A stretch of 56,918 bases of DNA from the NCBI GenBank assembly GCA_016932575.1, contig JAFGCO010000012.1:1-56918 (forward strand). The letters are read 5' to 3'. The position numbers and the translations under genes are program-made. The DNA comes from a bacterium. GTDB lineage: Bacteria > Zhuqueibacterota > QNDG01 > JAFGCO01. This document shows, in pieces, positions 36,215 through 48,866 of this stretch; position 1 is the stretch's first letter; every line of letters begins with the position of its first letter. A model generated the notes under the pieces. That model made no database searches, had not been told where the DNA came from, and worked only from the letters and a program-made list of their open reading frames with translations.

Positions 36215-36789
36215 AAATTTAATGAATATCAGGTATCATAGCCACCCGTCATGACGTTTTATTTAAAACAGCGGTTTATCAGGCACTACTTAGAGCAGTT
36301 TCTCAATATTATTTCAACTTTTATTCCGGAATCTTTCGCATTTGTTTATGCTTTGGGTCATTGAGTCAAAGAGTCTTTGAGTCATTGATTGAGATTGGAA
36401 CAGAGAATCGGAGAAACGGAGAGAAAAACAAGAATCAAGAACCAAGAAACAAGAATCAAGAACCAAGAAACAAGAATCAAGAACCAAGAAACAAGAATCA
36501 AGAAACAAATGTTGATTGATACCTGCTGAAAATGGTTGCCGTATTGCTTATGAAAATAATTATTTAAGAATTGACCTTCACCATTTTTTCCCTTATATTT
36601 AAGTCGATATTCAGCTTAAACATAATTCTCCTTCTCTATATGAACAACTATGATGCAATCCTGAAAATCAGGAGGCATCGGTGTTGTAAAAAATTATTTC
36701 ATATCCTCCTGCAGAAGCAAGGTTACTTTGGTGGAAAATGCTGAAATCTTGATAGCAAGAAGATAACGATTGACATAATAATGTAAAAG
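36215..36789. other. Noncoding stretch before the transposase region
   Basis: Contains a 21-bp tandem array (listed separately) and AT-rich sequence with near-repeats of GAGTCATTGA and GAGTCTTTGAG. I see no credible gene; minus-strand ORFs here are by-products of repeats. Confidence 0.5.
36429..36506. repeat. 21-bp tandem repeat, about 3.7 copies
   Basis: The unit CAAGAATCAAGAACCAAGAA plus A starts at 36429, 36450, 36471 and 36492 (last copy partial). Inside it is a drifting 7-bp A-rich unit (CAAGAAT-like). There are no variable spacers, so it is not a CRISPR array. Confidence 0.9.
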
Positions 36790-36892
36790 CAATGACAAAT
36801 TTCAAAATTCCAATGTTAAGATAATGAAAAAATCCCAATGTTAAAAAGCAGTGTGATCCTGATTTGATATTTATCATTGGGATTTTTCGATA
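36790..36892. repeat. AT-rich IVP-type repeat, deletion derivative (copy 1)
   Basis: Begins AATGACAAATTTCAAA like the element at 44119, contains GCAGTGTGATCCTGA, the counterpart of the start of the four-helix-bundle ORF, then passes directly to TTTGATATTTATCATTGGG, the right end. The internal gene is missing. Confidence 0.65.
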
Positions 36893-37008: not shown

Positions 37009-37590
37009 ATGTATGTGAAAGACAATCCTAAAAAATATTGTCGACGTTCAATTCGGTTAAAAGGATATGATTATTCTCAGGACGGATATTATTTTGTGAC
37101 GATCTGCACATATAGCCGGTTACCTTTATTTGGCAGAATTCAGGATGATTCTGTTGTATTGAATGATGGCGGAAAGATTGTGGATGTTTGTTGGCGTGCT
37201 ATTCCTGAACATTATCCAAATGTTGTTTTGGATGAATATGTAATTATGCCGAATCATGTTCATGGAATTTTAATTATTAATAATCATGTAGGGGTTCAAA
37301 ATGTAGGGGTTCAAGATTTTGAACCCCTACAGAATACGCATTTGAAAATGAACAGGTATCAACACATCATTCCCAAATCAATCGGTTCCATTATTCGTGG
37401 ATTTAAAATCGGCGTCACCAAATCGTTACGTCAACAGATAAAAATAAAACATGTCAGGCAAAGAAATTTTTACGAACACATTATCAGGAACGATGATGAA
37501 TTAAATAAAATCCGGGAATATATCAATTATAACCCATTGAAATGGGAACTGGATAAAGAAAATCCAATGAACCGGAAACATAGGAAATGA
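37009..37590 (+). CDS. REP-associated tyrosine transposase (RAYT, Y1 family)
   Basis: 193 residues. The HUH motif is in VIMPNHVHGIL, and the catalytic Tyr is probably in NFYEHIIRNDDELNKIREYINYNP; the opening RRSIRLKGYDYSQDGYYFVTICTY is typical of the family. Such enzymes cut and join single-stranded palindromes that carry a GTAG foot. Its own gene contains such a palindrome (37288-37330), adding VGVQNVGVQDFEPLQ between the two motif blocks. The stop overlaps the ATG of the following kinase (ATGA). Whether it is still active is unknown; no stop or frameshift is visible. Confidence 0.88.
   Translation: MYVKDNPKKYCRRSIRLKGYDYSQDGYYFVTICTYSRLPLFGRIQDDSVVLNDGGKIVDVCWRAIPEHYPNVVLDEYVIMPNHVHGILIINNHVGVQNVGVQDFEPLQNTHLKMNRYQHIIPKSIGSIIRGFKIGVTKSLRQQIKIKHVRQRNFYEHIIRNDDELNKIREYINYNPLKWELDKENPMNRKHRK
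37288..37330. repeat. GTAG palindrome plus extra half-arm inside the RAYT gene
   Basis: GTAGGGGTTCAA (37303-37314), four bases, then TTGAACCCCTAC (37319-37330) is a perfect 12-4-12 palindrome. A lone left arm GTAGGGGTTCAA lies at 37288-37299. Both are read in the frame GTA-GGG-GTT-CAA (V-G-V-Q). Confidence 0.92.
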
Positions 37591-40556
37591 TCGGCAAAAC
37601 CATTTCACATTACAAAATACTTGAGAAACTCGGCGAAGGCGGCATGGGTGTCGTCTACAAAGCCGAAGACATCAAACTCAAACGCCCTGTGGCTCTGAAA
37701 TTCCTTAATGATATTTATCTAAAAAACAATATCGGAAAATTTGTAGGGGCACATAATCATGTGCCCCTACATGGTAATGTGCCCCTACAGACGGAGGCGC
37801 AGGCTGCCGCGGCCGTCAACCATCCCAATGTGTGTACAATCTATGAAATCGATGAAGCGGATGGTCAGGTTTTCATTACCATGGAATATGTTGAAGGGGA
37901 GTCGCTTCGCGACAAGATTAAAGATCAAAGATTAAAGATTAAAGACGTTATTGTGTACGCCACCCAAATCGCAGAAGGTTTGCAGGCCATCCATGATCAG
38001 GACTTGGTGCACCGGGATATCAAAAGCGAAAATATCCTGATTACGGATAAAGGCCAGGTCAAAATCATGGATTTCGGTCTGGTGAAATCCATGCATGTTA
38101 AAGACAAACTGACGGATGAGTCATCCGGGGGCACCATCGCCACTATGTCCCCCGAACAGATCCGGGGAGAAGCGATCGATCACCGGTCCGACATCTGGTC
38201 GTTTGGGGTGGTGCTGTATGAAATGCTGACCCGCTGTTTACCTTTCACCGAAGAGAACACATATGCTTTAATTGATTCGATTCTGAATGAAGCACCGGTT
38301 CCTGTTGAAAACCATTGTCCTGATCTTTTACCTGAATTTTCACTTCTTATCAAGCGCATGATGGAAAAGAAGCCGGAGAACCGCTATCAATCAATGAAGG
38401 ATCTGCTTAAAGATCTGAGGCAGGTTCAGGCAGAACGTTCTCAAAAAGAAACAGCACCCCTTGTTTTCTCTAAATTTGTCCGGATTTTTCGTCGCCCTGT
38501 CATCATGATACCAGTAACAGTTATGCTTGTCATGATTATTTCACTAACAATTTTTATCATCAACCGAAACAAGAAAATCCGCTGGGCAAAAGTTGAGGCG
38601 ATCCCTAAAATTGCACAACTTGCGGATGAAGGTCGAATACACGAGGCATTCAATCTCGTTGTTGAAGCTGGAAAAATCATCCCAAATGATCCCAAACTTA
38701 TCGAATTATTGCCATCTATTTCCAGGCCGATCACCATTGATACGGATCCTCAGGACGCTGAGATATTTTGGAAAGAATACGCGGAAACGGAGGATCCGTG
38801 GATTTATCTTGGAAAAACACTCATTGACAGCATCAGGCTACCGACCGGATTGAAACGCATGAAAATAGATAAGGAAGGATTTCAGACGATTACCCTGGCT
38901 CCGCATATCCAACATCAGCCAGATCCGGAAGAAAACAGGAAACCTTTGCACCTGAGTATGATCAAGCTGGATCAACTGGGGAGCATCCCGGATGGCATGG
39001 TTCGTGTGTACCCCATTCATATTTCTAAGGAGTGGTATGAATATGGTGAGATTGAATATCCATCATTTTTCCTGGATCAATTAGAAGTGACGAATAAAAA
39101 TTACAAGGTTTTTGTGGACAGCGGAGGATACAGGAAAAAAGAATACTGGAAACACTCCTTTATCAAAGACGGACAGGCCGTTCCCTGGGAAGAAGCCATG
39201 TCCCTTTTTAAGGACAGAACAGGAAGGTTCGGTCCGGCAACATGGCAGGCGGGCGATTATCCATCGGGCAGGGAAAATTTCCCGGTGACAGGCGTAAGCT
39301 GGTATGAAGCGGCTGCCTATGCAGAATTTATGGATAAAGAACTACCTACGGTCACCCACTGGCGCTGGGCAGCGGGTATTGAATCCGCACCTTGTATGAT
39401 CCCCCTGAGCAATGTAAGCAGTATGGGGCTTGCCCGGGCTGGCAGTTATCCTGGGATGGGGCCCTATGGAACCTATGACATGGCAGGCAATGCCAGAGAA
39501 TGGTGCTATAACCGAATGATTCCGGGCGAAAGACGGTTTATTCTCGGCGGTGCGTGGAATGATCCTGACTACCTGTTCAATGCCAATCAGACAGCCATGT
39601 CTCCATTTGACCGCTCTGTAACAAACGGTTTCCGGTGTATGAAAATACTGGAAGGAGATTCAAGTTTCACAGATCTGGCAAAGCCAATCGAATATTCCAT
39701 GCGTAACGTTTATGAGGAAAAACCGGTTTCGGATCAGACGTTCGATATCTTCCTGCGTATGTTTAGCTATCCCAAAACAGATTTGAACGAATCGCTGATA
39801 GCAACCTATGAAAAGGAAGGGATGACCATCGAAAAGGTATCATTTGATGCCGCCTACTGGAATGACCGTGTTTTTGCCTATTTATTCCTGCCTGATAAAG
39901 GCTCACCCCCCTTTCAGACAGTTGTTTTTTTCCCGGGCAATGGTGCTGTAGGCGCATCCCCTGATATGGTATTGCAACCTTATTATATTCGTGATTTTGA
40001 CTTTCTTACTAAAAGTGGCCGTGCCGTTCTCCATCCTGTATACACCGGAACCTTTGAAAGAAGTCACAATCCGCCAAGAAAGATGTTCGAAGGAGATGAA
40101 TATTCGCAGAGGGATTTTTATATCATGTGCGCTAAAGATTTAAGCCGTTCGCTGGATTATCTGGAAACACGGCCGGATATTGACTGTTCAAAACTGGCCT
40201 ATTACGGATTAAGCTGGGGAGCGGAACGAGGTCCGATTATGGTGTACACTGGGAAGCGCTTTCGTACAGCTATATTTTATGGGGGTGGATTCTGGATATG
40301 GAACTTACCGTTTTTACCGGAGATTAATATATTCCATTATCTTCCAAGGTTAAAACTTCCCGTTCTCATGCTGAATGGGAAATTCGATTATGAGTTTCCA
40401 TATCAGCAGTCACAGCTGCCATATTATGATCTTTTAGGCACACCTGATCAAGACAAAAAACATTTTCTGGATAATACCTCCCATTTTGTTGGACGGGATA
40501 ATCTGATCAGGGAAATCCTTGACTGGCTCGATCAGTATCTTGGGCCGGTCAATTAA
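37587..40556 (+). CDS. Ser/Thr protein kinase - TM - SUMF1-like - alpha/beta hydrolase fusion
   Basis: 989 residues. Kinase domain: GEGGMGVVYK, VALK (Lys 38), αC Glu about 70, HRDIKSEN (142-149), DFGLVKS. A TM helix follows at about 305-330 (VIMIPVTVMLVMIISLTIFI), so the kinase is cytoplasmic and the rest is outside the cytoplasm. Next comes a PEGA-like beta region, then a SUMF1/FGE-type domain (DQLEVTNKNYKVFVD, PVTGVSWYEAAAYAEFM, TYDMAGNAREWC, GFRCM), and last an alpha/beta hydrolase with nucleophile Ser in YGLSWGAE, a candidate Asp in NGKFDYEFP and His in NTSHFVG. A GTAG palindrome is read through at residues 53-67. It begins inside the stop of the RAYT gene, with AGGA just upstream. Confidence 0.88.
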   Translation: MIGKTISHYKILEKLGEGGMGVVYKAEDIKLKRPVALKFLNDIYLKNNIGKFVGAHNHVPLHGNVPLQTEAQAAAAVNHPNVCTIYEIDEADGQVFITMEYVEGESLRDKIKDQRLKIKDVIVYATQIAEGLQAIHDQDLVHRDIKSENILITDKGQVKIMDFGLVKSMHVKDKLTDESSGGTIATMSPEQIRGEAIDHRSDIWSFGVVLYEMLTRCLPFTEENTYALIDSILNEAPVPVENHCPDLLPEFSLLIKRMMEKKPENRYQSMKDLLKDLRQVQAERSQKETAPLVFSKFVRIFRRPVIMIPVTVMLVMIISLTIFIINRNKKIRWAKVEAIPKIAQLADEGRIHEAFNLVVEAGKIIPNDPKLIELLPSISRPITIDTDPQDAEIFWKEYAETEDPWIYLGKTLIDSIRLPTGLKRMKIDKEGFQTITLAPHIQHQPDPEENRKPLHLSMIKLDQLGSIPDGMVRVYPIHISKEWYEYGEIEYPSFFLDQLEVTNKNYKVFVDSGGYRKKEYWKHSFIKDGQAVPWEEAMSLFKDRTGRFGPATWQAGDYPSGRENFPVTGVSWYEAAAYAEFMDKELPTVTHWRWAAGIESAPCMIPLSNVSSMGLARAGSYPGMGPYGTYDMAGNAREWCYNRMIPGERRFILGGAWNDPDYLFNANQTAMSPFDRSVTNGFRCMKILEGDSSFTDLAKPIEYSMRNVYEEKPVSDQTFDIFLRMFSYPKTDLNESLIATYEKEGMTIEKVSFDAAYWNDRVFAYLFLPDKGSPPFQTVVFFPGNGAVGASPDMVLQPYYIRDFDFLTKSGRAVLHPVYTGTFERSHNPPRKMFEGDEYSQRDFYIMCAKDLSRSLDYLETRPDIDCSKLAYYGLSWGAERGPIMVYTGKRFRTAIFYGGGFWIWNLPFLPEINIFHYLPRLKLPVLMLNGKFDYEFPYQQSQLPYYDLLGTPDQDKKHFLDNTSHFVGRDNLIREILDWLDQYLGPVN
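37743..37788. repeat. GTAG palindrome plus half-arm inside kinase 1
   Basis: GTAGGGGCACAT (37743-37754), AATC, ATGTGCCCCTAC (37759-37770): perfect 12-4-12 palindrome, followed by a second right arm ATGTGCCCCTAC at 37777-37788. Together they encode VGAHNHVPLHGNVPL, just before the αC Glu of the kinase domain. Confidence 0.95.
37914..37945. repeat. A-rich heptad repeat inside kinase 1
   Basis: Drifting copies of AAGATTA / AAGATCA encode KIKDQRLKIKD at the loop after the hinge of the kinase. The same kind of repeat occurs noncoding at 50593-50637. The loop length here equals that of ordinary relatives, so it may be a replacement and not an added stretch. Confidence 0.65.
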
Positions 40557-40583
40557 TGCAATATTTCAGGCAGTGGCAAGTAT

Positions 40584-40705
40584 GAAAAATATGTCAATTT
40601 CCAAATGATAAAAAACAATATAATTTTGATTTGACATTGATCATTGGGATTTTCCGCCTGAAAAGAATTGACAGACAAGCATTTGACATTTGGATTTGGT
40701 CATTT
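40584..40705. repeat. AT-rich IVP-type repeat, deletion derivative (copy 2)
   Basis: Contains ATGTCAATTTCCAAATGATA, CAATATAATTTTGA (counterpart of the IVP gene start) and then the right-end motifs TTTGACATTGATCATTGGG and CATTTGACATTTGGATTTGG. It stands directly before a kinase start fragment. Confidence 0.65.
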
Positions 40706-40719
40706 AAAAATTATTCGTT

Positions 40720-40821
40720 ATGATCGGCAAAACCATTTCACATTATAAAATCCTTGAGAAATTGGGCGAAGGCGGTAACTTGTCCCACAAGCCTAAAAGG
40801 AAATTTGTTAATGACAGGTAA
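40720..40821 (+). pseudogene. Truncated duplicate of a kinase start
   Basis: ATG 40720 opens MIGKTISHYKILEKLGEGG, matching the start of the kinases at 37587 and 45255; after 40775 the similarity stops and 14 unrelated residues lead to a stop at 40819-40821. The stop lies inside the start of kinase 2, in another frame. It is a leftover of duplication or recombination within the kinase family. Confidence 0.85.
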
Positions 40822-43072
40822 GATAATTTCCCATTACAAAATTTTAAAAGAGCTAGGCCGTGGCGGGATGGGCGTCGTCTACAAAGCCGAAGACACTAAA
40901 CTTAAACGCTCCGTGGCCCTAAAATTCCTCCACACATCTGCCACAAAAGACAAATCCGGTAAACTTATTGGGGCACATAATGATGTGCCCCTACAGACGG
41001 AGGCTCAGGGAGCCGCTTCAGTCAACCATACCAATGTGTGTACAATTTATGAAATTAATAAGGCCGATGGTCATATCTTCATCGCTATGGAATATGTTCA
41101 AGGCAGGACATTGAAGGATATCGTAGGGGCACATGGCCATGTGCCCCAGAGCATTGATGCCATTATCGATTACGCCACACAAATTGCCCAGGGCCTGCAG
41201 GCCATTCATGAGAAGGGCATGGTGCACCGGGATATCAAGAGCGAGAATATCCTGATTACCGACAAGGGTCAGGTCAAGATCATGGATTTCGGCCTGGTGA
41301 AATCCATGTCTGTTAAAGATCGGGTGACGGATCAGGATTCATCCGGAGGCACTGTCGCCTATATGTCCCCCGAACAGATCCGGGGAGAATCGATCGATCA
41401 TCGGTCCGATATCTGGTCATTCGGTGTGGTTTTGTATGAAATGCTGATCGGCAGTTTGCCGTTCACCGGAAAAAATGTTTATGCCATGATTGATTCAATT
41501 CTGAATGAAGAACCTGAGTCCATGACCGGATTAAGGATGGATATCCCGGAAGTGTTGGAACGGATGACATACAGGGCATTGGGAAAAAAGAAGGAGGATC
41601 GTTTCCAGGATGTTCAGGAAATTCTGGCGGATTTGAAAAAATCCCAAAAATTCATTGAATCCATACCTTTAAATGAAAAAACAGCTTCTAAAAAAACAAA
41701 ACCGTCCATAGCCGTACTTCCTTTCATAAACATGAGCGCGGATCCGGAACAGGAGTATTTTTGCGACGGGATCACCGAAGAGATTATCAATGCCTTAACA
41801 AACATTGGCAGCCTGCATGTTGTTGCCCGGACTTCCGCCTTCTTTTTCAAGGGCAAGGATGTCAAACTTCGGGATATAGGCAAAGAGCTGAATGTGGAAA
41901 CCGTGCTTGAGGGCAGTGTCCGGAAATCAGGCAGGCGACTTCGCATTACAGCACAGCTCATCAATGTCGAAAATGATTATCATATCTGGTCCGAAAAATA
42001 TGACCGTGAACTGGAAGATATTTTTGAAATTCAGGATGACATCTCTCTGGCTATTGCTGAAGCACTGAAGATCAGGCTTCTGAATAAAGAAAAAGCAGCT
42101 GTAATCAAACGTCACACAGACAATCATCAGGCTTATGAGCTCTATCTGAAGGGCAATTATTTCTGGAACCAGCGCTCTGAAGAAGGATACCACAAAGCCA
42201 TTGAATGCTTTCAAAAGGCCATCGAAAAAGATCCGAATTATGCACGGGCTTATGTAGGTATAGCCAAGTGTTATTGGGCACTTGGATTATATTTTATTGA
42301 TCCGGATGTGGCTTTACCCAAAACAGTAGAAGCAGCCAATAAAGCTTTGGAAATAGATGACAAAATAGGTGAAGCTTATGTAGCGGCCAGTAATAGTTGT
42401 CTTTTTTCATTTGATTGGAAAGAATCTATAAAACAGTGTAAACGGGCCATTGTAATGGATCTGCAGGATATTTATACTTACCATTGCTATTCAAATACAT
42501 TGGCGCTAATTGGAAAACACGATGAAGCAATCAGTGTCATTAAACAAGCTTTGGAACTGGACCCTCTTTCGCTTAATATGAACTCCGTTGCAGGATTTCT
42601 GCTTCTGTTCGCCCGCCGTTTTGATGAAGCTATAGAAAAATTTCATAAAATACTCGAAATAGATCCGGATTTTCAACATTCTTTGATGTACCTTGGAATC
42701 ACTTATATAGCAAAAACCATGATTGAAGAAGCCATAGATACCTTTCATAAATTTTATTCCCTTTCAGAAGAGAGCCCTTTAGCAACAGGCCTTCTGGGGT
42801 ATGCCTATGCCAGGGCAGGACGCAAAAAGGATGCTTTACAGTTGCTTACTCAATTGACCAACCTCTCAGAAAGCAGACATGTTTTATCGCTTCATCGCGC
42901 TCTCATATATTTAGGACTCGGAGAATATAATCAGACATTTGAATATTTGGAAAAGTCTTATAAAAAACATGAAATATTGTTTCCTTTCTTAAGTAGTATA
43001 TCCATTTTTGATCCGATACGTAAAGATCCCCGATATATAATTCTGATGAAAAAGATGAATCTTGAAAAATAG
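40811..43072 (+). CDS. Ser/Thr protein kinase with TolB-like domain and TPR repeats
   Basis: 753 residues from ATG 40811 (MTGKIISHYKILKELGRGG), behind AAAAGGAAA; an in-frame upstream ATG at 40754 would add 19 unrelated residues. Kinase motifs: RGGMGVVYK, VALK, HRDIKSEN, DFGLVKS, and SPEQIRGESIDHRSDIWSFG. After about 300 comes a TolB-like/adenylate-cyclase-associated domain (SIAVLPFINMSADPEQEYFCDGITEEI, LEGSVRKSGRRLRITAQLI), then TPR repeats to the end (AIECFQKAIEKDPNYARAYVGIAK). No TM helix is seen, so it is probably cytoplasmic. Two GTAG palindromes lie in the kinase domain. Confidence 0.9.
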   Translation: MTGKIISHYKILKELGRGGMGVVYKAEDTKLKRSVALKFLHTSATKDKSGKLIGAHNDVPLQTEAQGAASVNHTNVCTIYEINKADGHIFIAMEYVQGRTLKDIVGAHGHVPQSIDAIIDYATQIAQGLQAIHEKGMVHRDIKSENILITDKGQVKIMDFGLVKSMSVKDRVTDQDSSGGTVAYMSPEQIRGESIDHRSDIWSFGVVLYEMLIGSLPFTGKNVYAMIDSILNEEPESMTGLRMDIPEVLERMTYRALGKKKEDRFQDVQEILADLKKSQKFIESIPLNEKTASKKTKPSIAVLPFINMSADPEQEYFCDGITEEIINALTNIGSLHVVARTSAFFFKGKDVKLRDIGKELNVETVLEGSVRKSGRRLRITAQLINVENDYHIWSEKYDRELEDIFEIQDDISLAIAEALKIRLLNKEKAAVIKRHTDNHQAYELYLKGNYFWNQRSEEGYHKAIECFQKAIEKDPNYARAYVGIAKCYWALGLYFIDPDVALPKTVEAANKALEIDDKIGEAYVAASNSCLFSFDWKESIKQCKRAIVMDLQDIYTYHCYSNTLALIGKHDEAISVIKQALELDPLSLNMNSVAGFLLLFARRFDEAIEKFHKILEIDPDFQHSLMYLGITYIAKTMIEEAIDTFHKFYSLSEESPLATGLLGYAYARAGRKKDALQLLTQLTNLSESRHVLSLHRALIYLGLGEYNQTFEYLEKSYKKHEILFPFLSSISIFDPIRKDPRYIILMKKMNLEK
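40967..40994. repeat. GTAG-type palindrome in kinase 2, site 1
   Basis: ATTGGGGCACAT, AATG, ATGTGCCCCTAC: same 12-4-12 layout, with the left foot mutated from GTAG to ATTG. Encodes IGAHNDVPL at the same place as in kinase 1. Confidence 0.92.
41123..41147. repeat. GTAG palindrome in kinase 2, site 2
   Basis: GTAGGGGCACAT, then G, GCCATGTGCCCC; the right foot CTAC is replaced by AGAG. Encodes VGAHGHVPQ in the loop after the hinge region of the kinase domain. Confidence 0.9.
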
Positions 43073-43157
43073 TATAAAATAAAAAAGTTAGAATGGATAT
43101 TATTTGAATTAATAAAAATATAGATGATAAGTTAATTATAAATCAAGGACAATTACA

Positions 43158-44084
43158 ATGGAAGAAGAATATCTCATTGCAAAAGCTCCGAATCCACAAT
43201 TTTTCAAAAAACAGATGGGTGACGTTGAACTCATTGCCATTAGTGATGGAGGGCTGAACTACGATATTGATATGATACTTGGCCGAATTCCTCAGGATCA
43301 GGTTTCACAATATAACTTTCCTGAAAAACAGATATTCCTGCCCTATACCATCCTGCTTATCAAAACAAAAGACACGCTTTTGCTGTGTGATGTGGGCGCA
43401 GGTGAATTCGGGAATAATGGCGATAAGTTCTTTCCCGGTCTGGATCATACAACATCAAGAACCAATCTGGTTGTACCAAGTCTTAAACTTGCCGGAATCC
43501 AACCCGAGGACATCGATCTGATTCTCATAACCCACGCGCATCCTGATCATATCACAGGCATGCTGGATGCAGAAGGCAATCTGGTCTTCCCCAATGCCCG
43601 TTATCTGACTGCACAGAACGAGTGGGACTACTGGATGTCCGTCGATCCTTCGGCTGTTGAAGCGGAAGCACTGCGCAAACATCTTGAAGCGCTGGTTCAT
43701 GAAGCAAGAACCGGTTTTAATCCAATCAGGGATAAAATCACATTTGTACAGAATGGTGAGGAGATTCTGCCGGGAATTCGTGTAGAGGCCGCATACGGCC
43801 ATACACCGGGGCATGTGATGGTGTCCATCACATCGATAGGTCAAACCGCGTATAATATCAGTGACGTTGTGGTCCATCCCCTGTTTGTGGAACATCCGGA
43901 GTGGGCACCTGCCATTGATATGAATTGGGATCAGGCAGATCAAACACGCCGGCAATTTTACGCAAAGGCAGCCGATGAAAATGCATTGGTGTTTGGCCAC
44001 CACATGGGCCCGTTTCCCAATTTCGGCCGGATTGTAAAGCAGGGAAGTTCATTTCAGTGGCAGGCCATTGAGAAAGATGGTTAA
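43158..44084 (+). CDS. MBL-fold metallohydrolase
   Basis: 308 residues, no signal peptide. The Zn motif HxHxDH is intact in LITHAHPDHITGM; further ligands are likely in AYGHTPGHVMVSI, the Asp of NISDVVVHPLF and the final GHHMG. Overall it resembles the lactonase or quorum-quenching type MBL proteins (about 300 residues), but the substrate cannot be named. It stands between kinase 2 and the IVP element, apparently alone. Confidence 0.88.
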   Translation: MEEEYLIAKAPNPQFFKKQMGDVELIAISDGGLNYDIDMILGRIPQDQVSQYNFPEKQIFLPYTILLIKTKDTLLLCDVGAGEFGNNGDKFFPGLDHTTSRTNLVVPSLKLAGIQPEDIDLILITHAHPDHITGMLDAEGNLVFPNARYLTAQNEWDYWMSVDPSAVEAEALRKHLEALVHEARTGFNPIRDKITFVQNGEEILPGIRVEAAYGHTPGHVMVSITSIGQTAYNISDVVVHPLFVEHPEWAPAIDMNWDQADQTRRQFYAKAADENALVFGHHMGPFPNFGRIVKQGSSFQWQAIEKDG

Positions 44085-44118
44085 ATTTAAATTTGATTAT
44101 TAGTGATAAAATGATCAA

Positions 44119-44588
44119 AAAATGACAAATTTCAAATGACAAATGACAAGAAAATGTCCAAATCCAAATGACCAAAAGCTATATGATCTTGAAGACCGCA
44201 CTGCGATTTTTAGAGAAAGTATTATATATTTTGCCAAAACAATTCCTCAAAATCTAATTAATAATTCTCTAATTAACCAGCTTATACGATCCGGAACAAG
44301 TATTGGTGCAAATTATATGGAAGCAGATGCTGCTGCATCAAAGAAAGACTTTAAACATAAAATAAGTATTTGCAGAAAGGAAGCAAAAGAAACAATGCAT
44401 TGGCTTCGAATGATCGTAAAGGCCAATCCTGAAAAGACGAATGAAGGTCGGACATTATGGAAAGAAGCCAAAGAGTTAGCACTTATCTTTTCTGCAATAC
44501 TAAACACAAAGAAACAGCCATGAGTAACCATTTGACATTTGTCATTGGAATTTTTTTTGACATTGGGATTTAGTCATTTTACATTTTA
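44119..44588. mobile_element. Full-length IVP-type element carrying the four-helix-bundle gene
   Basis: The left end (AATGACAAATTTCAAATGAC, then AATGTCCAAATCCAAATGAC) and right end (CATTTGACATTTGTCATTGG, then GACATTGGGATTTAGTCAT) are imperfect inverted repeats of about 55-60 bp. The only gene is the four-helix-bundle protein, whose start lies inside the left repeat. Five derivatives in the window keep the ends but lack the gene. Confidence 0.75.
44143..44523 (+). CDS. Four-helix-bundle protein, 23S rRNA intervening-sequence (IVP/S23) family
   Basis: 126 residues. Core motifs: YDLEDRTAIFRESIIYFAKTIP, LINQLIRSGTSIGANYMEADAAASKKDFKHKISICRKEAKETMHWLRMI, and a final helix KELALIFSAIL. This is the four-helix-bundle family first seen in sequences inserted into 23S rRNA genes, but common outside rRNA. 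The first ~12 residues are encoded by the terminal repeat. Biochemical role unknown. It may be the mobility or maintenance protein of the element, or a passenger. Confidence 0.9.
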   Translation: MTRKCPNPNDQKLYDLEDRTAIFRESIIYFAKTIPQNLINNSLINQLIRSGTSIGANYMEADAAASKKDFKHKISICRKEAKETMHWLRMIVKANPEKTNEGRTLWKEAKELALIFSAILNTKKQP

Positions 44589-44645
44589 AAGATATTTATA
44601 AAAACAACATCACATTTCATTCATTAAATTTGAGGAGGAGTTATC

Positions 44646-45080
44646 ATGAATCTACAGGACTGTACCAAGTTTGCCAATGAGTATCCGATTTGCTACCTGG
44701 CCACAATGGATGGAGACCAACCCAGAGTCAGAGCGCTTTCAATGGTATTGGCAGATGAAAGGGGATTCGGTTTTTGTACGTTATATCCCAAGCAATTCAG
44801 CAAACAATTACATGCGAATCCTAAAATCGAAATCTGTTTTTATAATAATGCCACCGAATTTCCGGACATGAAAATGATGCGGGTCACCGGCAAGGCAGAA
44901 TTTACAGATGAGAAAGTGCTGATGGACAAAGCCATCGAAACCAGAAAGGGTCTATCGGATGTAATAGGACAACCGGTAGAATCCCTTCTTGAAATTTTCC
45001 GAATTAGCACAGGCGAAGCTTATTTCTGGACCATCATGGACAATCTGAAAGAACCTGATATAGAAAGGATCAGGTTTTAA
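44646..45080 (+). CDS. Pyridoxamine 5'-phosphate oxidase-like FMN-binding protein (copy 1)
   Basis: 144 residues, split-barrel flavin-binding fold: CYLATMDGDQPRVRALSMV, GFGFCTLYPKQFSKQLHANPKIEICFYN, MKMMRVTGKAEF, EAYFWTIMDNLKEPDIERIRF. Strong GAGGAGG before ATG 44646. Closely related to the gene at 51081 (most positions identical by eye). Probably binds FMN or F420-like cofactor; substrate unknown. Preceded by the right end of the IVP element. Confidence 0.88.
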   Translation: MNLQDCTKFANEYPICYLATMDGDQPRVRALSMVLADERGFGFCTLYPKQFSKQLHANPKIEICFYNNATEFPDMKMMRVTGKAEFTDEKVLMDKAIETRKGLSDVIGQPVESLLEIFRISTGEAYFWTIMDNLKEPDIERIRF

Positions 45081-45083
45081 AAA

Positions 45084-45238
45084 CAATGACAAATTAATGT
45101 CAAAATTCAAATATACAAAAACAATATGATCTTGAGAAGAATATAATCATATTAAACACAAAGAAAAAATCGTGAATAGCCATTTGACATTGGTCATTGG
45201 GATTTCATTTGACATTTGGATTTGGTTATTTGACATTT
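45084..45238. repeat. IVP-type repeat, internal-deletion derivative (copy 3)
   Basis: Keeps both ends of the 44119 element and short remains of the gene: TATGATCTTGA (45125-45135) from its start and ATTAAACACAAAGAAA (45151-45166) from its end (full copy: ACTAAACACAAAGAAA). The ~330 bp between are deleted. Confidence 0.85.
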
Positions 45239-45254
45239 ATTCGGTAGTACTAAT

Positions 45255-48200
45255 ATGATTGGTAAAACCATTTCACATTATAAAATCCTTGAGAAACTCG
45301 GTGAGGGCGGCATGGGTATCGTCTACAAGGCCGAAGACATCAAACTTAAACGCCCCGTGGCCCTCAAATTCCTCCATGAATCTTCCATAAAAGACAAATC
45401 CGGTAAACTTATCGGAGCATATGATGTGCCCCTGCAGACGGAGGCTCAGGCAGCCGCTTCAGTCAACCATCCCAATGTGTGTACAATCTATGAAATCGAC
45501 GAAGCTGATGGTCAGGTTTTCATTGCCATGGAATATGTGGAAGGCAGAACATTAAAGGATATCGTAGGGGCACATAATCATGTGCCCCAGAGCATGGATA
45601 CCATTATCGATTACGCCACACAAATCGCAGCAGGTTTGCAGGCCATTCATGAAAAGGGTATGGTGCATCGGGATATCAAAAGTGAAAACATCCTGATTAC
45701 CGACAAAGGTCGGATTAAAATCATGGATTTCGGCCTGGTAAAATCCGTACATGTCAAAGACAAACTGACGGATAAGTCCTCCGGAGGCACCATCGCCTAT
45801 TTGTCTCCTGAACAGGTCCGGGGAGAAACGATTGATCATCGGTCTGATATCTGGTCTTTTGGTGTAGTGCTGAATGAAATGCTGACAGGTCAGTTGCCTT
45901 TCTCTGGAGAGAATGCCTATGCAGTGGTTGATTCAATTCTGAATGAAGAACCTGTCCCCCACAGAAATCTTTTGCCTGAGATATCGATGTCTCCAGAAAA
46001 TATGGTATTCCGATTATTGGAAAAAAATCCGGATGATCGCTACCAGGACATGGATGAACTGCTCCGAGATCTTAAATTACTCAAGATAGCGCCTGAATTT
46101 GAGGCTTCTGAAAATTATTTTAAACATACACCCTCTTTTTTATCCCGAAAAAAAATAAAAACAGAAAATAAACCATTATTCTGTGTGGGCCGCGAACAGG
46201 AACTGTCAACACTTCAGAAAACATTGGAGAAAATTCTGACAGGCCGGGGACAGATCATTTTTGTAATAGGCGAGGCCGGATGCGGCAAAACCACACTGAT
46301 CAATGCATTCGGACAAAACATACAAAAAACAACTCCGGATCTGATTATTGCAGGAGGCAAATGTAATGCGCATACCGGTTTTGGGGATCCGTATTTGCCG
46401 TTTCGTAAGATTATAAAACTCCTGACCGGAGACGTTGAAGCGATGTGGGAAGCCGGGGCTGTTACCCGGGAACATGCCAACTATTTGTGGAATATGCTTC
46501 CATATACAGTGAAGGCATTAATAAAGGAGGGACCTGATCTTATTGATACCTTCCTGTCAGGCGATGCTCTCGTTTCCCGCGCAACAACTTATTCCTCAGG
46601 AAAAGAAAGCTGGCTGCCCCAATTAAAATCTAAGGTCAAAGAAAAGGCGGATTCTGCATTATCTTCAAATATTCAGCAGACCGACCTGTTTGAGCAATAC
46701 ACCAATGTTTTGTTAATATTAGCACGGCATAAACCTCTGCTTTTAAAACTGGATGATCTTCAATGGGCAGATGCGGGTTCCATCAGTCTGTTGTTTCATC
46801 TGGGACGGAGGCTCCAGGGCAGTCGAATATTTCTTTTAGGGGCCTATCGATCTACTGAAGTGGCTCTGGGCCGGGGAGAGACCAGACATCCGCTGGAGCT
46901 TGTGATCAATGAATTCAAACAAATGTACGGGGACATCGAACTGACATTCAGCGAGGATACGGATCGGCATTTTATCGATGCTTTAATTGATACGGAACCC
47001 AATAACCTGGGAAGATCATTTCGAGATACTTTATTTCATCAAACAGAGGGTCTGCCCTTGTTTACAGTGGAATTGTTACGCAATCTGCAGGAACAAAAAA
47101 TGATTGTCCGCAATAGAGAGGGCCGATGGATTGAGGGTTCGGATCTAGACTGGAACAGGCTACCAGCACGCGTGGATGCGGTTATTGGAGAACGTATCGG
47201 ACGGCTGCCCAAAAAACTACAGCAAATTCTCTCTTTCGCTAGCATACTGGGTGAAACCTTTATAGCAGAAGTCATCGCGTCGCTTTCTGACACAAGTGAA
47301 CGTGAAATGATCAAATTACTGAGTTCCGACCTGGATAAAAGGCACCATCTGGTGACTGCATTGGGTATCCAGCGTGTCAACAACAGACGCTTGTCCCTGT
47401 ACAGGTTCCGGCATGTCCTGTTTCAAAAATATCTATACAGCAGCCTGGATAAAATCGAGCGTGCCAGTCTGCACGAAGAAGCGGGTGCCATTCTGGAAAA
47501 GATATATGAAAATCATATCGATGAAATTACTGGCAATCTGGCCCGTCATTTTCGTGAAGCCGGGCTGTTTGAGAAGGCTGTTGATTACCTGGTTGAAGCT
47601 GGTCACAGGGCTTTACAGCTCTCTGCGAACAAAGAAGCCATTGAACACTTTAATCAGGCACTGACACTCATTCAAAATCTAACTGAATCTCATGAACGTG
47701 ATCAAAAGGAGCTTTCGGTTCAAATTGCTTTAGCGGTTCCCATCATTGCCATAAAAGGATGGGCTGTCGCGGATATTGAGAAAATATACATGCGTGCTCG
47801 GGAATTAATTGAGAAGACTGGAGAGTCCCGGCATCGTTTCACCGTTCTCCGGGGTTTGTGGGGTTTTTACGCAACCAGTGGTCAATTGCATAAAGCACAC
47901 ATCATGGGTAAAGAACTGGTTTTAACTGCGAAAAATTTAAAGGATTCATCGCTTCTGGTTCCGGCCTACCGTTCGCTGGGAGTGGCTCTGCTGTATCTTG
48001 GGAAGTTCGGACCAGCGAGAGTCAATCTGGAAAAGGGGATTGCCCTTTCCAAGCCTCAACAGCATCAATCACTGATTTTTCGTTTTGGTCATGATCCGGA
48101 AGCCATCTGCAGGGGATTTGCTGGATTGAATTTATGGTTTCTTGGCTATCCCGAACAGGCTGTCCATACAAGCAAAGAAGCACTGGCATCGGCCAGAAAA

Positions 48201-48866
48201 GTGTCCCACCCCTTCACTTTGGCTTATACTGTGTTTCTGAGCCTTCATCTTCATCACTGTATTCGGAACATACAAAAAACAGAGGAACTGTGTAAGTTAT
48301 TGATCGACTTATCATCCGGTAAAGGGCTTAAAATCTGGACATCACAGGGACACTGTTATCATGGGTGGTGTCTGATCAAACAGGGACAATTCGATCAGGG
48401 CATCGGGAAAATACAGGAAGGTCTGGAAGTTTTTCGTACTTTTGACCAATTAACTTTTTTACCTCATTATCTTGCGATGTTGGCTTATGGTTATCTATCT
48501 ATTGGAAAAATACAAGAGGGTCTTGTCGTAACCAATGATGCATTTTCTGTAATAAAAAAAACCAAAGAGCATATTCACGAAGCAGAGATTTTTCGGCTTA
48601 AAGGTGAATTGTTATGGAAAATGAATAATGCAGAGACAGAAGCAGAGAAATGCTTTAGTCAGGCGCTTAAAATCGCCCGAAGGCAGAAAGCAAAATCCTG
48701 GGAACTGCGATCAACAATAAATCTATGTCGACTCTGGAAAAATCATGGAAAAACACAGGAGGCTTGTAATAGTCTGACACAGATTATGCAATGGTTTACA
48801 GAAGGATTTAATACGCCGGACCTGAAAGAAGCCAGGGCATTGCTGGATGAATTATCCGGAACATAA
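45255..48866 (+). CDS. Ser/Thr protein kinase fused to AAA ATPase and TPR domains
   Basis: 1203 residues. Kinase domain at 1-280 (GEGGMGIVYK, VALK, HRDIKSEN, DFGLVKS, LSPEQVRGETIDHRSDIWSFG). From about 310 a predicted ATPase of the MalT/PknK type: P-loop VIGEAGCGKTTLINAF, Walker B LLLKLDDLQWADAGS, LLGAYRSTEV, HQTEGLPLFTVELLRNL. From about 790 on, TPR-like helices (EAIEHFNQALTLI, EEGLVV-type repeats) to the end. No TM or DNA-binding domain seen. Two palindromes of the GTAG family lie in the kinase part. The ribosome-binding site is weak and a repeat of the IVP family ends just upstream. Confidence 0.9.
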   Translation: MIGKTISHYKILEKLGEGGMGIVYKAEDIKLKRPVALKFLHESSIKDKSGKLIGAYDVPLQTEAQAAASVNHPNVCTIYEIDEADGQVFIAMEYVEGRTLKDIVGAHNHVPQSMDTIIDYATQIAAGLQAIHEKGMVHRDIKSENILITDKGRIKIMDFGLVKSVHVKDKLTDKSSGGTIAYLSPEQVRGETIDHRSDIWSFGVVLNEMLTGQLPFSGENAYAVVDSILNEEPVPHRNLLPEISMSPENMVFRLLEKNPDDRYQDMDELLRDLKLLKIAPEFEASENYFKHTPSFLSRKKIKTENKPLFCVGREQELSTLQKTLEKILTGRGQIIFVIGEAGCGKTTLINAFGQNIQKTTPDLIIAGGKCNAHTGFGDPYLPFRKIIKLLTGDVEAMWEAGAVTREHANYLWNMLPYTVKALIKEGPDLIDTFLSGDALVSRATTYSSGKESWLPQLKSKVKEKADSALSSNIQQTDLFEQYTNVLLILARHKPLLLKLDDLQWADAGSISLLFHLGRRLQGSRIFLLGAYRSTEVALGRGETRHPLELVINEFKQMYGDIELTFSEDTDRHFIDALIDTEPNNLGRSFRDTLFHQTEGLPLFTVELLRNLQEQKMIVRNREGRWIEGSDLDWNRLPARVDAVIGERIGRLPKKLQQILSFASILGETFIAEVIASLSDTSEREMIKLLSSDLDKRHHLVTALGIQRVNNRRLSLYRFRHVLFQKYLYSSLDKIERASLHEEAGAILEKIYENHIDEITGNLARHFREAGLFEKAVDYLVEAGHRALQLSANKEAIEHFNQALTLIQNLTESHERDQKELSVQIALAVPIIAIKGWAVADIEKIYMRARELIEKTGESRHRFTVLRGLWGFYATSGQLHKAHIMGKELVLTAKNLKDSSLLVPAYRSLGVALLYLGKFGPARVNLEKGIALSKPQQHQSLIFRFGHDPEAICRGFAGLNLWFLGYPEQAVHTSKEALASARKVSHPFTLAYTVFLSLHLHHCIRNIQKTEELCKLLIDLSSGKGLKIWTSQGHCYHGWCLIKQGQFDQGIGKIQEGLEVFRTFDQLTFLPHYLAMLAYGYLSIGKIQEGLVVTNDAFSVIKKTKEHIHEAEIFRLKGELLWKMNNAETEAEKCFSQALKIARRQKAKSWELRSTINLCRLWKNHGKTQEACNSLTQIMQWFTEGFNTPDLKEARALLDELSGT
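45411..45435. repeat. Degenerate GTAG-family palindrome in kinase 3, site 1
   Basis: ATCGGAGCATATGATGTGCCCCTGC is seen as arms ATCGGAGCAT and ATGTGCCCCTGC: shortened by 3 bp and mutated, but still in frame, encoding IGAYDVPL at the same position as in kinases 1 and 2. Confidence 0.8.
45564..45588. repeat. GTAG palindrome in kinase 3, site 2
   Basis: GTAGGGGCACAT, AATC, ATGTGCCCC, right foot lost. Encodes VGAHNHVPQ in the loop after the hinge, as in kinase 2. Confidence 0.92.

Follow-up and report, generated by a model that had tools for sequence, protein, structure and literature searches.

In-frame GTAG-type palindromes in surface loops of bacterial PknB-type kinases and their concentration in the alphaD-alphaE loop

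Palindromic repeats of the GTAG and CGTC REP types are translated inside ORFs in many species (Di Nocera et al. 2013, PMC3733652), and recB of two Xanthomonas carries an intragenic REP at about the same site (PMC3733652). Such intragenic REPs lie mostly in scattered single genes, many of them for DNA repair, and belong to families abundant in the genome (PMC3733652). The Rickettsia palindromic elements (RPEs) are also found in frame in likely functional protein genes, and two of them, RPE-4 and RPE-6, are CGTC-tagged (PMC3733652). GTAG palindromes are further associated with RAYT transposase genes in REPtrons (Nunvar et al. 2010, PMC2817692). Coding REPs, Rickettsia RPEs and RAYTs accompanied by REPs are established, and read-through repeats inside genes are usually known as scattered oddities. 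At the protein level, the position between helices alphaD and alphaE holds the DE insert, or kinase insert domain, of receptor tyrosine kinases (PMC8662651, PMC4058747).

The locus described here lies in a window of 56,918 nucleotides (the whole stretch of DNA analyzed) from the 4.4-Mb genome G000, which belongs to a little-studied bacterial phylum. It resembles the intragenic REPs in having short GTAG-tagged palindromes translated within ORFs, but differs in that different palindromes, with few or no other copies in the genome, have repeatedly hit a single loop within an expanded family of kinases. The likeness to the coding palindromes of Rickettsia drawn in the first-pass annotation holds for the in-frame position in protein genes and not for the ends, which are GTAG/CTAC rather than the CGTC of RPE-4 and RPE-6. 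REPs flank the gene in described RAYTs (PMC2817692), whereas about half of the RAYT-like genes here carry a palindrome in frame. The DE insert shares the alphaD-alphaE position and fast evolution, but is eukaryotic, longer and endowed with known signalling roles, and its DNA source is not addressed in the available parts of these two papers. In the literature searched, from which subscription journals were mostly absent, neither an RPE recurring in a single loop of one paralogous family nor a recurrent kinase-loop hotspot was found described.

Palindromes within three neighbouring kinase genes

Three PknB-type kinase genes, all on the + strand as are the RAYT-like gene beside them and the repeats inside these four genes, were found in the window. 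K1 (37587..40556; Pfam Pkinase 7.1e-52) is fused to an FGE-sulfatase domain, K2 (40811..43072, with ATG 40811 preferred as start to the listed TTG 40754) possesses a TPR region, and K3 (45255..48866) possesses AAA_16 and TPR regions. All three match PF00069 (Pfam) with invariant HRD and DFG, and PknB/Stk1 were the best fold matches. They have a common kinase module and different C-terminal parts, and form one group with full support in a tree built with both loops masked. Just one kinase beyond these three was detected in G000 by Pfam search. A RAYT-like (HuH/Y1) transposase gene (37009..37590; NCBIfam NF047646) is located directly upstream of K1, and its stop overlaps the K1 start (ATGA). Immediately 5' of K2, at 40720-40811, a kinase gene-start stub (MIGKTISHYKILEKLGEGG..) is interrupted by a 35-nt stretch (TAACTTGTCCCACAAGCC..GTTA), after which the second kinase start comes.

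All five occurrences of the 28-bp GTAG palindrome, whether copies or relics, that the first-pass annotation had listed in K1-K3 were recovered at the positions given there, each in frame. At site 1, in the beta3-alphaC loop, K1 carries a perfect palindrome with 12-bp arms (37743-37770) followed by a third arm (37777-37788), and the whole stretch (37743..37788) codes VGAHNHVPLHGNVPL. The copy in K2 (40967..40994, coding IGAHNDVPL) is partly decayed with two mismatches in the 5' arm, and a relic is left in K3 (45411..45435, coding IGAYDVPL). Site 2 is placed by the structure model and the PknB alignment in the predicted loop between alphaD and alphaE. The palindromes there in K2 (GTAGGGGCACATGGCCATGTGCCCC, 41123..41147, coding VGAHGHVPQ) and K3 (GTAGGGGCACATAATCATGTGCCCC, 45564..45588, coding VGAHNHVPQ, between model helices 100-104 and 114-133) are complete but for TAC absent at the 3' end. 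K1 possesses no palindrome in the same loop (37917..37949), where a short direct repeat is found (AAGATTAAAGATCAAAGATTAAAGATTAAAGAC, KIKDQRLKIKD). The arm with up to two mismatches occurs 11 times in the window, a number reached in none of 100 shuffles. As single-stranded DNA the K1 palindrome gives a folding z of -7.6, and a nested hairpin is predicted for the 46-nt stretch.

Pattern searches of the whole genome, which had been proposed as a check, did find copies inside ORFs, but the exact arm GTAGGGGCACA is confined to K1-K3 with six copies and is thus not a genome-wide repeat. Full palindromes of the exact pattern GTAGGGG..CCCCTAC were found only in K1 and once within the adjacent RAYT-like gene. 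The 28-bp GTAG...CTAC unit of K1 has the size and ends of a GTAG REP (20-40 bp palindrome, GTAG end), but not the high copy number and mostly intergenic location, as the two GTAGGGG..CCCCTAC places and six arms of G000 are all inside genes, within 8 kb. The term GTAG-REP-like is therefore used here. A genome-wide REP family in G000 was rejected, none being found by the pattern search.

An alignment of 147 kinase domains confirmed the longer distance from the catalytic Lys to the alphaC Glu noticed earlier. It is nearly constant in the homologues, at about 19 residues, but reaches 25 in K3, 26 in K2 and 32 in K1. The insert (+13, +7 and +6 residues in K1, K2 and K3, respectively) is present in these three proteins only, and since the peptide is absent from every other aligned homologue, K1-K3 gained it. 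Both peptides fall in surface loops of the structure models, the site 1 peptide in the beta3-alphaC loop, which is modelled with low confidence in K1 (pLDDT under 50). Neither peptide was found among the aligned homologues as a conserved motif in any distant lineage; an old conserved peptide was rejected, as homologues lack it. The simplest reading is a single ancestral insertion at site 1 preceding the copying of the kinase module.

The alphaD-alphaE loop in related kinases

A total of 243 kinases were surveyed for palindromes in their kinase-domain DNA, with the site-2 loop defined as codons 99-116. Among the palindromes scoring at least 11 in the kinase-domain DNA, 14 of 17 are located in this loop (binomial P 1.7e-14; counting each distinct type once, 12 of 15 with P 2.7e-12), and 38 palindromes scoring at least 9 were observed against 17.7 expected from codon shuffles. 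Short direct repeats also peak in the loop. The types include GTAG palindromes with differing cores (L095, L106, L149, L128, L129, L145 and K2 of the window) and several unrelated palindromes, namely AACCT..AGGTT (L020, L098, L148), CAATTG (L130, L139), CCCCCTTAG (L132) and TGACCCG (L117), nearly all from the same phylum. In the sampled kinases of other phyla the pattern was absent, except for records grouping with this phylum; judging from the named KSB1 records L015, L026 and L035, which group with its kinases, the phylum is probably candidate division KSB1. The relatives are draft genomes, mostly metagenome-derived, with as many as 45 kinases per genome. The two homologous sites first reported are both real and in frame, and what had been missed is that site 2 is a phylum-wide hotspot for several unrelated palindromes. 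AACCTT palindromes were rejected as dispersed repeats in G042 and G020, being single-copy in both.

On the tree, constructed by a quick method, the GTAG label requires 8 changes, of which at least 4 are forced by well-supported branches, and all palindrome types together require 14; the changes may be gains or losses, so these counts are approximate. The whole loop core has been swapped between close paralogues: the G056 genes L145 and L233 share 94.3% of their DNA sequence and have different cores (GTAGGGGCACGGGG.. versus GTAGGGGCGTATAA..). Across 32 independent close pairs the site-2 loop is the most variable segment, with 41% identity and a length difference in 7 pairs, compared with 58-96% identity in other segments. 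The dN/dS values outside the loops range from 0.03 to 0.25, so the kinases are constrained, and these ratios indicate purifying selection outside the loops.

At site 2 the palindrome mostly replaces the native loop, with a net gain of 3 residues and not about 10. The usual site-2 span is 24 residues, and kinases with a palindrome depart from it by -2 to +13. Four palindrome-bearing kinase ORFs look broken (L224, L225, L233, L236). The native loop GGGGCCCC was considered as a seed of REP recombination, but is present in only 1 of 70 GPL loops, and the idea is therefore unsupported.

GTAG palindromes and RAYT-like genes

The gene upstream of K1 matches NF047646 (REP-associated tyrosine transposase) in two stretches with E 5.6e-14 and 52 bits, under the curated cut-off of 80 bits, and has no Pfam match; it is therefore labelled RAYT-like. 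It contains an HuH motif (HVH, residue 83) and a downstream Y motif (FYEH, 154; numbering of the aligned stretch). Between them an in-frame palindrome GTAGGGGTTCAA.. (37288..37330) codes VGVQNVGVQDFEPLQ and differs from the kinase palindrome. In G000 the latter was found nowhere beyond K1-K3, and the palindrome of the nearest RAYT-like gene is another one, so that no donor is visible. The initial description of REP-type repeats beside a RAYT accordingly stands as to the GTAG type and the adjoining RAYT-like gene, but not as to a dispersed REP family, and the neighbour carries GTAGGGGTTCAA. Of 31 RAYT-like genes examined, 16 (from G033, G056, G006, G041, G022 and others) contain a GTAG or GTAGAGAC palindrome in their reading frame. 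With few exceptions it is placed between the HuH and Y motifs, and the transposase gene thus codes its own palindrome.

GTAG palindromes were classified at 35 distinct places in G033, G056, G011, G002 and G006. Ten are in kinase ORFs, comprising nine at site 2 and one in the linker after the kinase domain (L239), eight are in RAYT-like ORFs, few are in other ORFs, and the remainder are intergenic. G033 and G056 contain 12 and 17 places, some of them intergenic. Exact GTAG palindromes are enriched in the kinase genes of these two REP-bearing relatives, with 9 of 29 (P 2e-8; 6e-6 without duplicates) against a kinase share of about 2.5% of the DNA at an assumed gene length of 2.6 kb. The reading frame of all kinase cases is V-G-A-x4-P-L/T. 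Outside kinases and RAYT-like genes, one internal in-frame GTAG palindrome was observed in the five genomes, VGATGRSPLL at aa 432-441 of L232 (G056:C163), an ABC permease-like protein of MacB/FtsX type by eye.

The kinase palindrome on G033:C246 is identical to that within the RAYT-like gene on G033:C167; the flanks differ, and these are the sole two exact copies in G033. RAYT-like genes abut kinase starts in four genera (G000, G006, G013, G033). Directly upstream and within 400 bp they were found for 4 of 241 kinases versus about 0.16 expected, an enrichment that is suggestive only because a density of 3 per genome was assumed and random windows from the same kinase loci score similarly (5 of 447), so that the proximity rests on few cases. 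In L236 (G056:C316) the kinase ORF stops short of DFG and continues as RAYT-like sequence, which looks like the result of a RAYT entering the kinase gene. From these sequence relationships, it is suggested that RAYTs may supply the kinase palindromes.

Origin and retention of the loop inserts

We consider it probable that repeat DNA is recurrently captured by a surface loop that tolerates it and that corresponds in position to the insert of receptor tyrosine kinases. In two surface loops of the K1-K3 ancestor, a palindrome of GTAG type would have entered the reading frame; it was probably a REP, with a RAYT-like transposase helping to move or copy it. Copying of the kinase module would have carried it into the three neighbouring genes, where it partly decayed. 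The alphaD-alphaE loop would be a general landing place, occupied and re-occupied in related kinases of the phylum by different GTAG, other palindromic and short repeated DNA. The inserts may have been kept because the loop is exposed and far from the catalytic core, so that they do little harm, with the rest of the protein under purifying selection. RAYT would thus be the mover of the palindromes and tolerance the cause of their retention, and recombination between paralogues may have spread them further. Against this reading count the unseen donor in G000, the single-copy AACCTT palindromes, the variable site-2 span, the few cases of RAYT proximity and the broken-looking kinase ORFs. In addition, no pair of empty and filled sites fixing the exact insertion borders was found, and each 28-bp unit requires a frame-correcting change. 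The earlier idea of a system of repeats that domesticate loops is not supported as stated, with no sign of a dedicated system or benefit.

A sizeable minority chance is given to recombination between kinase paralogues, by gene conversion or shuffled gene starts, in place of RAYT, with the palindromes as passengers. Such recombination bears on the mechanism alone and is compatible with the hotspot of the preferred reading. The common module and different C-terminal parts of K1-K3, the stub 5' of K2, which shows recombination at gene starts, and the high number of kinases per genome conform to it, but the first arrival of palindromes is left unexplained, and so are the identical units with different flanks in kinase and RAYT-like genes.

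Adaptive diversification of the loop, in which captured repeats were retained as new alphaD-alphaE loops offer paralogous kinases new docking or regulatory surfaces in the manner of the DE insert of receptor tyrosine kinases, seems unlikely, although the inserts may have some adaptive value. Close paralogues do diverge most in the site-2 loop while the remainder is constrained, the internal in-frame GTAG palindromes of the genomes checked are largely those of kinases and RAYT-like genes, and in tyrosine kinases this loop holds a functional insert that evolves fast (PMC8662651). However, no particular peptide appears conserved, the palindromes are free to decay, some of the genes with a palindrome look broken, and most of this pattern would also be expected under neutral tolerance. 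It is likewise improbable that the loop serves this large family of bacterial kinases as a natural cassette for diversification, rewritten again and again by mobile palindromes and repeats whose products are selected as such surfaces; if true, bacteria would have an equivalent of the DE insert whose DNA source is known.

Slightly more doubtful is a single ancient GTAG insertion at site 2, followed by compensatory mutation or conversion from other REP copies instead of separate insertions. It would account for the frame VGAxxxxPL common to all kinase cases and for the several carriers within one subfamily, but carriers lie in several separate clades with non-carriers between, unrelated palindromes occupy the same site, and the whole core differs between the 94%-identical paralogues. 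Ordinary coincidence, a conserved protein motif with chance-palindromic codons, is highly improbable and was rejected by the homologue alignment, the hotspot count and the paralogue swap, for although genuine coincidental palindromes exist at the IMDFGL motif (score 10-13), no part of the domain is less conserved than the site-2 loop, and its palindrome cores of 22-33 bp have few mismatches or none.

Under the preferred reading of a tolerant, repeat-capturing loop, unrelated repeats were taken up many times by one structurally defined loop of an enzyme that remained constrained. Whether useful protein segments can come from mobile repeats is an old question that these dozens of natural replicates make testable. 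They also suggest how inserts might arise at the DNA level where receptor tyrosine kinases carry their functional insert.

Another repeat, AAATGACAAATTTC / TTTGACATTTGGATTTGGTCATTTGACATTT, was observed around the kinase genes at 36780-36889, 40591-40720, 44110-44192, 44497-44594 and 45149-45246. Its copies lie on both sides of an S23 (23S rRNA intervening sequence) protein gene (44143-44523) and also 5' of the RAYT-like gene, K2 and K3, there without the S23 gene; it looks like a repeat element with the S23 gene aboard in some copies. Between K2 and K3, 43158-44084 encodes a metallo-beta-lactamase-fold hydrolase similar to quorum-quenching lactonases, under the curated cut-offs. K3, mainly in the part after its kinase domain, resembles the TOMM system kinase/cyclase fusion proteins (TIGR03903) with 366 bits, under the cut-off of 706.
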